Shown here: positions 10,799-17,099 of the stretch, piece after piece
Layout: the number at the start of each line of letters is the position of its first letter
Numbering within the stretch: position 1 is the stretch's first letter
Made by a program: the position numbers and the translations under genes
Source of the DNA: a virus
Strand: one strand, 5' to 3'
Length of the DNA: 24,848 bases
Virus record (IMG/VR): IMGVR_UViG_3300047496_000063
Coordinates: 1-24,848 of that record
Notes under the pieces: model-generated
Databases searched by the model: none
Seen by the model: only the letters and a program-made list of their open reading frames with translations
Told to the model about the DNA's origin: nothing

Positions 10799-13700
10799 AT
10801 GTTGAATGAATCATATCTCAATGACGCATTCCTTAACGGCAATGGGCAGGGCTTCAATCCAAATTCAGGAAACACAGATTTCGCTCTCGGCAGTATTACT
10901 GTTTCAGACTACAAGTGGCTCACTCAAACCCTAAAAACGGCTCAACTTCAATTCAATGTTCGGCCGTATTTTAGCTGTGAAATCATTGATGATTCGATCG
11001 TTCCAAATCAGATTCTCACGCCTCCAGGACAACCCTTAAACGGTAGTTCCGTCACCGCGCCGGATGGTGCTATTTTGTCTGTCGGAAAAATCTCGAGCAC
11101 TGGCTATCTTGGTTTTTGGAAAGTCACCGATGCTTCTATTGCGGGAGTATGGGCTTCTCCGACGACGGTACTTGACGCGACGTCGGGATCTTCTGTTTCA
11201 AACGGCTACCGAGGGGATATGAACGCAGCTATCAATGTTTCTGAATACATTGCTGGAACGTACACTATCGACGTCTATTATTTCAAGACTGCGAGTTCTT
11301 TACTTGTTATCGGCCATCAGCGTTCTACTGACGGAGGTCTAACATGGAGCTCGGTAATAGCGCCGAACGCCACAGGTATCGCTTCTTCAGGCTCGAGCTA
11401 CATCGCAGCTGGCAAGCCAGTGCAGGACATCAACGGAAAAACAACCGGTGTATTTTTCTATATCAATCATGGAGCTTCAAACGATACAGTTCACTATCAA
11501 TATTATGCTGGTACGGGATCTTCTTTTTCAGCCGACACTGTATGGTCTCCAAAAAACATCAACTCGGGTGACTGGAAACTTCACAGTTTAGACTCCTATT
11601 TCAAAAAAGGAATCTACTACATTGTTTTCTCAGGCTATCATCAGGTCATCGAAGATACAAATGACAATTACAGTATCTACACGACCGCACTTCTCTCTCT
11701 CACGAGTAGTATTTCCACCGATCTCTGGGACTTTCAGCGACCGGTTCTTTCTTCTTTGTCCTCGGCTTCAATTAACCAGAACAGTTTCACTTTTCCGAAG
11801 GCTTCTTTTGACGGCACAAACGTCTGGGTTTTGTTCAACGCGCAAATCGTCAGCTCGATCAAAACTTCGGCGACTCCTTCCGATCCAGGAAACACAGTCA
11901 CAACGACAACGCAATACTTCCTCACGCGCACGCAGAACATGATCGACTTCACCTATCCTTTTCCGGTCATGTTCACTGATGGTACGGCATTCATGGATAC
12001 AGCCGGAAACAACTTTGTCATCCAAGGTTCGTACTATTACATTCTTGGAAACGGAAATCTCTGGCAATATGTTCAGAACAACATTATCGCGGACATCACA
12101 AACGACACGCTCGGATTTTCAATTCAAGAAAATGCAGGTGAAGCATCTTCCATTTCTTTGCAGGTTGGAAATCAGAACAACCAGTGGGTAGGCGCTAGTC
12201 CCACAAAGCCAGGTGCGGCAGCTATCGCAAAAGACAAGAAGATCCTCTTAAGTGTCGGTTATTACAATGGTGCAGGCGTTCCGGAAACCGTACCGCGCAA
12301 CATCTACTTCATCGACGACATCGCGCAGAACGTAAACACCACCTCGAATGACCTTACAATTACAGGCCGAGATTTTCGACGCAATTTGAAAAATCTTGTG
12401 TCAGCTTTCTTGTATAACTATAACGGTCCATTCTTCTACAATGACATCATGGACGGAACAACCGTATCGAATTGGAATCAAAACGGAGGAACATGGACGC
12501 AGACTTTGAATGAATGGGCGACCCAGGACAGCAATGGTTCAGCGCCAAACTACGATAACGGTACACAGTACACGCTTACGCTTGCGCAACCTGATCTCGG
12601 CCGTTCAACCTCGCTTTATTCTGTTATCGCATCTTTTCCTTTCCTTAGTACGGCGAGCTGTTTTGCAACTTTCTACGCTTTCTATCAGGACGCGGCCAAC
12701 TGGGTGCGTCTTCGAGTCAATTCCATCAACGGTGATTCTTCACAGTGGAGTTATGTTATCGAGAAAAGTGTAGCTGGAACTGTAACTTCTCTACAGACCG
12801 GGAACATCACTTCGGCAAATGGTCGCGCACAACCATATCCGGTTATCATCAAGAAAACGAATTTCTACAAGTACCAGTTCATCGTGGGTAATAACTATAC
12901 GGCGAGCGGAAACGGAATCCTTTCATACCAGCCTTCAGCGAACATCCACGTTCTTGGAGGGGAAGTAGATCTCACTTCGGACTTCACGGCCGGAAACTTC
13001 ACGCGAGGTTCTGTTGGTTTTGGTTCACAGAACTTCCCAGGACAGTTTTCTTTCTTCAAGTACATGCAGTACTCGGACTCTTTGAACATTGCCCAGCTTC
13101 TTGAATCAATCGGAGTGAAGGCTCGAGTATTCAAATACAAGCCGGAAAATAATTTTATTGATCCGATTTTTAATCCTGCCATTTATACCGGAACTTTCAC
13201 GCAACAAAACCGAATCATCAGCGTTGCAAATCAAAACTTAGTCTACAAAAAGAAAGAGTTTATCTCTGACCCTACTGATCTGACTTTCACTGACGGCGAA
13301 GTACGCTTCATGGCGAAGGTTGGAACCGGCGATCCTACTCAGGATTACGGTTTCAATTTCATTTTTCGAAGTGCGACCACAGCCAATTCTTCAAACTCAT
13401 ATCAGTGGAATATCGCTAAAAAAACCGGCAATTCTGGCGTTGCAGAAATAACTTCGCGTTTTAGTATTTCAAATTCAACTGCTGGTGCTGTTGGCGTTCT
13501 CATGCAAAGTTCTTCGATCGTAGATTACACCACGGCATATGCTACGACCTCGGGACTCAATGTTGATCTTACTCAGTGGAATGAATATCGGCTTGTTGCG
13601 ACTGATGGCTGGATGCTCGGCTTCATCAACAATATTTTGGTTCTCGCATGGTATGACAACAACACCACGGCGAACAATACTTCTGGCTACATTGGTTTCC

Positions 13701-14916: not shown

Positions 14917-14944
14917 ATATATGCAATTAAATATTTTTATATCA

Positions 14945-15169
14945 ATGACCTCGCTTAAATTTATTAGTGATAATTGGGAAATATTCGCGGCCATCGGAGC
15001 TATAGTTGTAAGTTATTTAAGATATGAAAACAAAGTGAATAATCTTGAACGGCGAACAAATTATTTGGAAGAAAAGATTGAGAAGATGGACACGACTTTT
15101 CTTCAGCTTCAAAAAGATATCGTCGAAATCAAAACAACTCTCTTATTCATTAAAGAAAAAGTAAAATGA
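14945..15169 (+). CDS. small membrane-anchored coiled-coil protein, putative lysis accessory (74 aa)
   Basis: An alternative ATG at 14921 adds eight residues; I prefer 14945 because of the -10 element at 14911-14916 and the A/T leader. The protein has one hydrophobic segment near its N-terminus (IFAAIGAIVVSYLRY) followed by a charged heptad-rich helix to the end (KVNNLERRTNYLEEKIEKMD and on). It overlaps the next gene (peptidase) by 4 nt (ATGA). One TM plus coiled coil next to a lysin and a holin candidate suggests an i-spanin-like or XhlA-like role, but no family is recognised. Confidence 0.65.
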   Translation: MTSLKFISDNWEIFAAIGAIVVSYLRYENKVNNLERRTNYLEEKIEKMDTTFLQLQKDIVEIKTTLLFIKEKVK

Positions 15170-16257
15170 ACAATCAACTCGTAGAAGGAAAATATGGTCA
15201 TGGTGCTCGAATCACTCCGCATAATCCGGAAGTTGCTCGTTTTGCTGACATAGCGAAAGATACTGCACCATTCGATTGGAATGCCGGTTTCGATGTTCGA
15301 AAGGTTCTTTTGGAGAAAGCTGGCATCTCGGACGTTCCAACTAAAGATCAAGGCATCTCAGGTGCTTGTGGAGGAATTATGATGTCGTATCTCGCACAAA
15401 TTCTTATCGCTATTTTTACTGGAATTTTTGAAGAAAAAAGTGCGAAATTCGTATATGCGCCAGTTGCGTATCCAGATTTTGGGGGTTCTTCGGAGGAAGA
15501 TCTCATCAGACGAGTTATGAATGTTGGAATTTCAAGCGAAAAATTGTGTCCATCCTACGACAACGGCCAACCACCAACAGAAGCTTTCATGGCTCGAGCA
15601 TCAGACATCACGCCGGAAGCCGTCATGAACGCTTTGAAGTCGCATGGTTTTACTCAGGCATACGTTGACCTCGAAAGCATTGATGAGCTCGCGTGCGCTA
15701 TTCGTGACCACTTTGGTATTGGTTCAGGTATCTCGGCTATGAATAACGGAACGTGGGCATCACAGTTTCCAGTCGCTCCAACGCTTCCACCAAGAGATCC
15801 AGGACTCTGGGCTCATTGGGAATATTACGGCCGAGCTCATCTTGTGAATGGGGTAAAGAAGATCTTCGCGAAGAATGGCTGGGGTGATGCTGTCGGAGAT
15901 CATGGCTGGCAGGGAGTCGGTGAAGAATTTCTCCCTTACATGTTCGCTCCTTTCGCTCTTGTCTTTACCGGATTGGTAGAAGGTTTTACCTACACGTTTA
16001 CCCAGGACTTGCGACTCGGTAATGTCGGGGATGAGGTAAGCGCTTTGCAGATGGCTTTGAAACTCTCCGGAGATTATCCGAAAGAACAGGCGCTCACTGG
16101 TTATTTCGGTCAAGTTACCTATGCAGCCGTGAAGAGTTTTCAGACTAAACATGCAGCAGAAATTCTCACACCGGCCGGACTTACTCTTCCAACCGGTATC
16201 GTCGGCGCGAACACTCGAAAAGTCCTTAATGGTTTGTATTTTACAAAGGAGGTATAA
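15166..16257 (+). CDS. papain-like (C1A) cysteine peptidase fused to a peptidoglycan-binding domain (363 aa)
   Basis: Residues about 20-275 follow the papain fold: Gln62 in DQGISGACGG places Cys68 at +6, exactly the Gln19-Cys25 spacing of papain; His225 lies in RAHLVNGV, and Asn237 in KNGWGDAVGDHGW, the N-x-W-G...G..G(W/Y) signature. The usual disulfide Cys22 is replaced by Ser65 and the Trp after the catalytic Cys by Gly. Residues 281-358 are a PG_binding_1 domain (RLGNVGDEVSALQMAL; GYFGQVTYAAVKSFQTKHAA; GIVGANTRKVL). No signal peptide is seen, so export would need the holin. Overlapped upstream by the membrane coiled-coil gene and followed by the holin candidate, it is most likely a lysin that cuts the peptide part of the cell wall or its proteins (inference). 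Confidence 0.85.
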   Translation: MNNQLVEGKYGHGARITPHNPEVARFADIAKDTAPFDWNAGFDVRKVLLEKAGISDVPTKDQGISGACGGIMMSYLAQILIAIFTGIFEEKSAKFVYAPVAYPDFGGSSEEDLIRRVMNVGISSEKLCPSYDNGQPPTEAFMARASDITPEAVMNALKSHGFTQAYVDLESIDELACAIRDHFGIGSGISAMNNGTWASQFPVAPTLPPRDPGLWAHWEYYGRAHLVNGVKKIFAKNGWGDAVGDHGWQGVGEEFLPYMFAPFALVFTGLVEGFTYTFTQDLRLGNVGDEVSALQMALKLSGDYPKEQALTGYFGQVTYAAVKSFQTKHAAEILTPAGLTLPTGIVGANTRKVLNGLYFTKEV

Positions 16258-16267
16258 TAAAAATATC

Positions 16268-16501
16268 ATGAACACATCAACAACAACGGTTAAGCATAGT
16301 GCATGGCGAGGAATATCAGCAGGTATTTCGTTCGTAGTCGGGCTTCTTTTGGTTCATTTTGCATCAACACTGAACCTAACCCTTGCGGACGTTCTCAATT
16401 ACTTTCCGCAGGTAGCGAACATCACTGTCGGAACCATCGTGTACGCCGTGTGGCATTACGCCGAGAAGAACCTGCTCGACTTGCCAGTTGAGCAACAGTA
16501 A
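16268..16501 (+). CDS. putative holin, two transmembrane segments (77 aa)
   Basis: Start at 16268 after the leader AAAAATATC, identical to that before the gene at 830. The 77-residue protein has TM1 at about residues 15-36 (ISAGISFVVGLLLVHFAS) and TM2 at about 49-66 (VANITVGTIVYAVWHYAE), a basic N-terminus and an acidic C-terminus, the pattern of class II holins. It lies between a lysin and a lytic-transglycosylase-like gene. A perfect AAAGGAGGT occurs at 16245-16253, but it codes the end of the previous protein and is 14 nt from the ATG, too far for normal use. No specific holin family is recognised. Confidence 0.7.
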   Translation: MNTSTTTVKHSAWRGISAGISFVVGLLLVHFASTLNLTLADVLNYFPQVANITVGTIVYAVWHYAEKNLLDLPVEQQ

Positions 16502-16509
16502 ACCTTGAT

Positions 16510-16583
16510 TGGAGAATCGACTAATGGCAGGTCAGCGGTCCTTGAAACCGCGCGTCTAGGTCCGAATCCTAGTTCTCCAGCCA
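16510..16583 (+). tRNA. tRNA-Gln (anticodon TTG)
   Basis: A full cloverleaf can be folded by eye: acceptor TGGAGAA/TTCTCCA (16510-16516 with 16573-16579), three-pair D stem GAC/GTC with a 9-nt loop containing GG, anticodon stem GCGGT/ACCGC with loop CCTTGAA (16540-16546), variable GCGT, T stem CTAGG/CCTAG with loop TCCGAAT, discriminator G and encoded CCA. The T1-A72 pair, G73 and the D-arm layout are bacterial tRNA-Gln features and agree with the TTG anticodon (reads CAA). Odd: base 33 is C, not T, and loop position 55 is C in place of T. It begins 8 nt after the holin candidate's stop. Confidence 0.9.
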
Positions 16584-16697: not shown

Positions 16698-17099
16698 GTG
16701 CTGTTTTGTTCGGTTTCTGGAGCTTTTCCGTCTACTCAGTCAGCTCCGGCGGATTTCGTGGTGTCTCAACAACCCTCAGAAACGCCTAAAATGCTCGTAG
16801 AGCGCATCTTCGGGAAGGATAGCCCAATGCTCCAAGTCGCACGGTGCGAGTCGGGGCTACGGCAATACCAGCCCGGAGGTGCGCTTTTACGTGGGCGTGT
16901 AAACCCTTCGGACGTGGGGATCTTTCAAATCAATGAACATTATCATCAATCGGCTGCACTCGCGCTTGGGCTCGATATAGAAAAGCCGGAAGACAATGTG
17001 CGGTATGCCTATCATCTTTACCAGCAAAATGGTTTTCAAGATTGGAAAGCTTCGAAAAGTTGCTGGGGAGAAAACAGTTCCAGTACCGATATAATTTAA
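16698..17099 (+). CDS. secreted lysozyme / lytic transglycosylase-like protein (133 aa from GTG)
   Basis: The fold core is ARCESGLRQY (Glu51 as catalytic acid), GRVNPSDVGIFQINEHYH (the G-x-x-Q-I-N motif), then NVRYAYHLYQQ and a closing SKSCW. Cys50 and Cys122 probably form a disulfide, so the protein acts outside the membrane. Small SLT-like proteins with this exact pattern are, to my knowledge, common in Patescibacteria. Start is uncertain: GTG at 16698 gives a short hydrophobic leader without a positive residue. Upstream in frame the hydrophobic sequence continues (FLTLIFTKFVFSAVLF) to a TGA at 16647, behind which lies an in-frame ATG at 16635. It may cut glycan strands for lysis or entry. 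Confidence 0.75.
   Translation: MLFCSVSGAFPSTQSAPADFVVSQQPSETPKMLVERIFGKDSPMLQVARCESGLRQYQPGGALLRGRVNPSDVGIFQINEHYHQSAALALGLDIEKPEDNVRYAYHLYQQNGFQDWKASKSCWGENSSSTDII
17090..17095 (+). promoter_or_regulatory. possible -10 element TATAAT
   Basis: A consensus TATAAT overlapping the end of the lysozyme-like gene, followed 11 nt later by a perfect Shine-Dalgarno and the ATG at 17121. The best -35-like hexamer (TTGCTG, 17060-17065) is 24 nt away, which is too far. Called on the -10 and on the change in gene style downstream. Confidence 0.3.

Follow-up and report, generated by a model that had tools for sequence, protein, structure and literature searches.

No cysteine protease fold has been studied better than that of papain, which is known for protein cleavage. 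The wider superfamily has already been linked to phage endolysins: the N5 domains of mycobacteriophage Lysin A were assigned to it as C39-like in 2012 (PMC3314691), so the original prediction was too strong in denying such a fold to known endolysins. Tailed phages (Caudoviricetes) are also described as having acquired xylellain-type C1A genes, and the passages dealing with these phage copies give them no lysis role (PMC10380794). The open-licence literature on papain, C1 or xylellain together with endolysin yielded no account of a C1A-PG_binding lysis enzyme.

The window analyzed here is the whole 24,848 bases of an IMG/VR virus contig from an uncultured phage, whose ends do not overlap. A fragment of a GT4-type glycosyltransferase lies at the contig start (1-813; NCBIfam matches to 6e-10, below cut-offs). 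The locus around the peptidase gene contains the following features:

14921-15169, + strand: 82-aa membrane/coiled-coil protein, XhlA-like (Pfam XhlA 5.8e-5, below cut-off), overlapping the peptidase start
15166-16257, + strand: C1A papain-type peptidase fused to PG_binding_1, 363 aa, lacking an N-terminal hydrophobic segment
15271-15978, + strand: papain-fold core, about residues 36-271 (family profile, model and structure alignment)
15349-15369, + strand: predicted oxyanion Gln62 to nucleophile Cys68 (QGISGAC), invariant in the 22 rows covering them
15742-15756, + strand: family signature NNGTW, residues 193-197 (N193, N194, T196 and W197 invariant in 23 sequences)
15814-15816, + strand: predicted catalytic His217, invariant in 23 of 23 and aligned with the chymopapain histidine region
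15874-15876, + strand: Asn237, predicted third catalytic residue, Asn or Gln across the family
16027-16227, + strand: PG_binding_1, residues 288-354 (Pfam E 1.4e-9, score 38.5 against a cut-off of 23)
16268-16501, + strand: 77-aa holin-like hydrophobic protein (sequence and hydropathy), whose Shine-Dalgarno AGGAGG lies within the final part of the peptidase gene
16698-17099, + strand: lysozyme/SLT-like protein, candidate second lysis enzyme (profile and model), start uncertain

The peptidase open reading frame begins with ATG, and its frame and motifs are kept in 22 relatives, which confirms the gene as real; the predicted fusion to PG_binding_1 was likewise borne out, the domain scoring above the Pfam cut-off. 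The front part of the protein had no Pfam match, including none to Peptidase_C1, and bears the papain-family marks KDQGISGACGG and KNGWG. Pfam matched neither CHAP nor NlpC-P60 in the window protein or in its 23-sequence family.

An AlphaFold2 model of the protein (pLDDT 89.3, pTM 0.83) was compared with solved structures by means of Foldseek, which returned Xylella xylellain first (5e-14), followed by procathepsins, chymopapain and papain. VIA-align superposed the model on xylellain 3OIS with Z 27.3 (2.5 A over 240 residues), in agreement with the papain-type C1A core that had been predicted from motifs. A profile search with the family sequences also placed xylellain first (9.4e-14), with chymopapain at 1e-7. 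Xylellain aligns to model residues 6-269 and mature papain relatives to about 36-270; residues 1-35 resemble the xylellain N-terminal segment. Among the top matches listed, the nearest by both profile and fold were C1A rather than C39; C1A dominated the fold matches, and CHAP, NlpC-P60 and C39 were absent from those listed, a more distant kinship with them being possible. The model thus places the domain within C1A proper. Against predicted viral proteins, the best matches included phage proteins named 'Peptidoglycan binding-like' and 'Peptidase_C1', and relatives are therefore present in public structure predictions, without a stated role.

The papain order of catalytic residues, Gln-Cys-His-Asn, is present as Gln62, Cys68, His217 and Asn237. 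Gln62 and Cys68 had been correctly identified, both being invariant in all rows that cover them. By contrast, the histidine first proposed, His225, was wrong: only the window protein has it, while every one of the 23 aligned sequences has His217. The family profile aligns the histidine of a WxH motif with the chymopapain histidine region and an SWG motif with papain NSWG. Asn237 held up in part, as the position is Asn in most relatives but Gln in 7 of 23. Replacement of papain Cys22 and Trp26 was confirmed, the equivalent positions being Ser65 and Gly69. Gln62, Cys68 and His217 are invariant among sequences only 25-43% identical to the window protein over the full alignment, which fits selection for catalysis.

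The family comprises 23 sequences with the window protein: 21 of the 22 relatives lie in IMG/VR contigs, and one is a truncated copy in an Acetobacteraceae metagenome-assembled genome (MAG), which stops short of the binding domain and lies near the end of a contig. An exact-peptide search with the single window sequence found nothing; a degenerate DNA pattern of the active-site motif recovered two full-length relatives in IMG/VR, and two further patterns recovered more. The nearest relative, L144, is 45% identical across the papain part. PG_binding_1 was matched by Pfam in 15 of 23 members and went unmatched in eight, one of them truncated, while Peptidase_C1 was matched in only eight (best 7e-6, E up to 0.5). 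In L131, L134, L142 and L143, PG_binding_1 is replaced by a common C-terminal segment (KIIKDxNSPAVGIWLPA...), possibly another wall-binding part. In the phage record that carries relative L123 (L153:7257-16107), there is a series of genes of surface-sugar type together with transketolase-like genes, all recognized by eye.

With tblastn against named phages, the window protein and L041 gave matches to the PG-binding domain only, L123 and L144 gave none, and L134 gave one weak match, in an unannotated 595-kb phage; a plasmid search also returned only a PG-binding-domain match. The deposited phage MW202577 encodes a divergent protein of the papain-PG_binding type (profile E 2e-6, weak PG_binding_1). 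Of 385 genomes sampled from the class to which the Acetobacteraceae MAG belongs, that MAG alone contained the family. Its truncated copy does not favor one odd host, as might go with the earlier suggestion of an unusual wall or surface protein layer. The type of lysozyme described below led us to suspect Patescibacteria (candidate phyla) as hosts, which we do not assert.

As predicted, the window peptidase gene lies between the membrane coiled-coil gene and the short hydrophobic open reading frame. PHROGs spanin and holin matches to the former were weak, and no Pfam holin family matched the latter. The same gene order (tail or tail-fibre-type gene, membrane/coiled-coil gene, papain-PG_binding gene, short membrane protein gene) occurs in the window, L017 and L041. 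Across the family, 16 of 22 loci have a small membrane-protein gene adjoining the peptidase gene; among 92 other large genes on those contigs and on the same strand, 8 have such a neighbor (Fisher p 2.6e-9). A neighbor was counted by crude hydropathy when within 400 bases on the same strand. The six loci outside this rule are the window, L149, L140, L133, L141 and L142; the flanking open reading frames of the window fall below the hydropathy cut, and L142 is excluded solely because its curated holin is too long. That holin, Phage_holin_4_1 (3e-16), lies directly beside the peptidase gene. Both the fusion and its position next to small membrane or holin-like genes are found repeatedly in a family of uncultured phages. 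In MW202577 the divergent papain-type gene is followed by a 67-aa membrane open reading frame and then lyZ1.

More distant C1A-like genes were also seen in phage records. In G004, Phage_holin_4_1 (3e-19) overlaps a divergent C1A-like gene (L155:13378-14686), and a separate set of CHAP-like, holin-like and lysozyme genes is present, as in L103. At L045 (10719-14136), the gene for a different C1A-like protein (11986-12939, DQGRSGSCGG) immediately precedes those for an Rv2525c-like glycoside hydrolase (2e-14) and an SLT protein, which may reflect a further case of C1A peptidases being recruited to a lysis region. A further phage family, carrying DQGNMGSCGG or a similar motif and matching Peptidase_C1 weakly, is represented by L026 (2750-4074), L028, L030, L054, L055, L065, L083 and L099; its L026 member adjoins a thioredoxin-like gene.

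The original prediction named the peptidase as the phage lysin and missed a lysozyme-like gene at 16698-17099, which comes after the holin-like gene and a tRNA-Gln gene (anticodon ttg, 16510-16583). Given this second enzyme, the main lysin of the window is not necessarily the peptidase. Upstream of the GTG listed as the start of the lysozyme-like gene, the hydrophobic stretch continues. A profile built from eight relatives matches C-type lysozymes (6e-6); Pfam SLT_3 is found in five of the eight, the window protein itself being below the Pfam cut-off. Its model (pLDDT 80) gave lysozymes and lytic transglycosylases as leading matches, with a modest Z of 8.4 and Foldseek E-values above 0.1. The profile also located a lysozyme-like gene close to the papain gene in L146, L149, L145 and L132, and likewise in L150 and L141, both of which had contributed to the profile. 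We considered a nearby lysozyme as the mark of one branch of the family and rejected this, since the label was scattered on the tree (L135 was labeled by eye; L146 and L149, added by the later profile, were left out). In L103, a CHAP-like gene precedes the holin-like gene and lysozyme, which suggests that the papain gene occupies a peptidase slot held there by the CHAP-like gene.

In other genomes the peptidase was the sole lysis enzyme detected. The L041 genome is complete and circular, because the ends of its record overlap by 79 bp, and a scan of 38 of its open reading frames against Pfam and PHROGs identified portal, capsid, terminase, tape measure and other proteins. No lysis enzyme besides the papain-PG_binding protein was found there with Pfam, the first 25 PHROGs families listed or the lysozyme profile; a match to phrog_971 'endolysin' turned out to be the tape-measure protein. 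G001, the 36.9-kb record behind L017, likewise had no other lysis enzyme by Pfam and the lysozyme profile. In both genomes a diverged lysin could escape such scans, as the lysozyme of the window itself lies under the Pfam cut-off. The complete L041 genome supports the claim that the peptidase is a lysin; in the window, where the enzyme is not alone, its naming as the phage lysin is not supported.

We consider it probable that the protein is a holin-released, wall-bound peptidase of endolysin type. No N-terminal hydrophobic stretch was found by hydropathy in the family proteins, which would therefore remain cytoplasmic until a holin acts. The C1A peptidase, with Gln62, Cys68, His217 and Asn237, would be made without a signal and stay cytoplasmic until the neighboring holin-like protein opened the membrane; the C-terminal PG_binding_1 domain would then anchor the enzyme on peptidoglycan, and the papain domain would cut peptide bonds of the wall, most likely in stem or cross-link peptides. 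In the window phage, the lysozyme-like enzyme would cut glycan strands alongside, and in some relatives the peptidase seems sufficient by itself. Catalysis, holin dependence and peptidoglycan as the substrate are inferred, the last of these from the binding domain, the cassette and the apparent sole presence of the enzyme in L041. The C1A peptidases characterized so far have proteins as substrates, and D-amino acids occur in peptidoglycan stems; we count both facts against a peptidoglycan-cleaving reading. We give about even chances to the specific proposal that a true C1A peptidase hydrolyzes peptidoglycan peptides, as the only endolysin in some phages (L041) and as half of a papain-plus-lysozyme pair elsewhere, including the window. 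More broadly, phages appear to have enlisted papain-type proteases to assist in bursting bacteria, perhaps through cleavage of the wall.

The main rival, which we regard as unlikely, is an accessory lysis-time protease that would act on protein (S-layer, wall-linked or outer-membrane-associated) while its PG-binding domain provided an anchor and the lysozyme-like enzyme dealt with peptidoglycan. The fold, a true C1A type nearest to protein-cutting enzymes, fits this explanation, as do the lysozyme-like genes in the window and several relatives and the eight members in which PG_binding_1 went undetected. Yet most members are predicted to bind peptidoglycan, and in L041 and G001 the peptidase must suffice unless a lysin there is undetectable. 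Considerably less probable is a virion-associated enzyme or a capsid or tail maturation protease that happens to be encoded near lysis genes: the gene does follow tail or tail-fibre-type genes in the window, L017 and L041, but it repeatedly lies directly beside small membrane or holin-like genes, shows no fusion to tail domains and, in L041, coexists with a separate prohead protease (S78 match). A catalytically dead papain fold with a wall-binding or regulatory role, or a host-derived gene unrelated to lysis, is very improbable, since the Gln at position 237 in seven members and the one truncated MAG copy are set against three invariant active-site residues in divergent sequences and against 22 of 23 sequences coming from virus records, compared with 1 of 385 genomes of the MAG's class.

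If the endolysin-type reading is true, the family would clearly exemplify the turning of C1A enzymes against the bacterial wall and would provide a new catalytic module for lysins. The two-gene arrangement of papain and lysozyme would offer a direct test of lysis shared by separate peptidase and glycan enzymes. Such proteins escape annotation: the window protein has no Peptidase_C1 match, and the MW202577 version is labeled hypothetical.

Among described proteins, xylellain (3OIS) has the same fold and active-site order as the window protein and a similar N-terminal segment; the two are 16% identical, and the 3OIS chain has no PG_binding_1 part. Lysin A N5 is comparable as a papain-superfamily cysteine peptidase that serves a phage endolysin and is accompanied by a C-terminal binding part. 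It differs in being assigned as C39-like, where the closest matches listed for the window protein are C1A, and in usually being joined to a central amidase or glycosidase, whereas the glycan enzyme of the window family is a separate gene or undetected. CHAP and NlpC-P60 endolysins are also clan CA cysteine enzymes of lysis cassettes, and the CHAP-like open reading frame of L103 sits in the same slot; however, their folds are smaller, and the best matches to the window model are all C1A. Finally, phiKZ gp144 (3bkh) carries the same class of wall-binding domain, through which the family profile matches 3bkh at 0.0014 and the endolysin 7rum at 2.6e-5, but its catalytic domain is a lytic transglycosylase rather than a C1A peptidase. 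The C1A-PG_binding lysis enzyme is therefore an extension of known papain-superfamily lysins and known phage C1A genes, rather than a wholly new kind.
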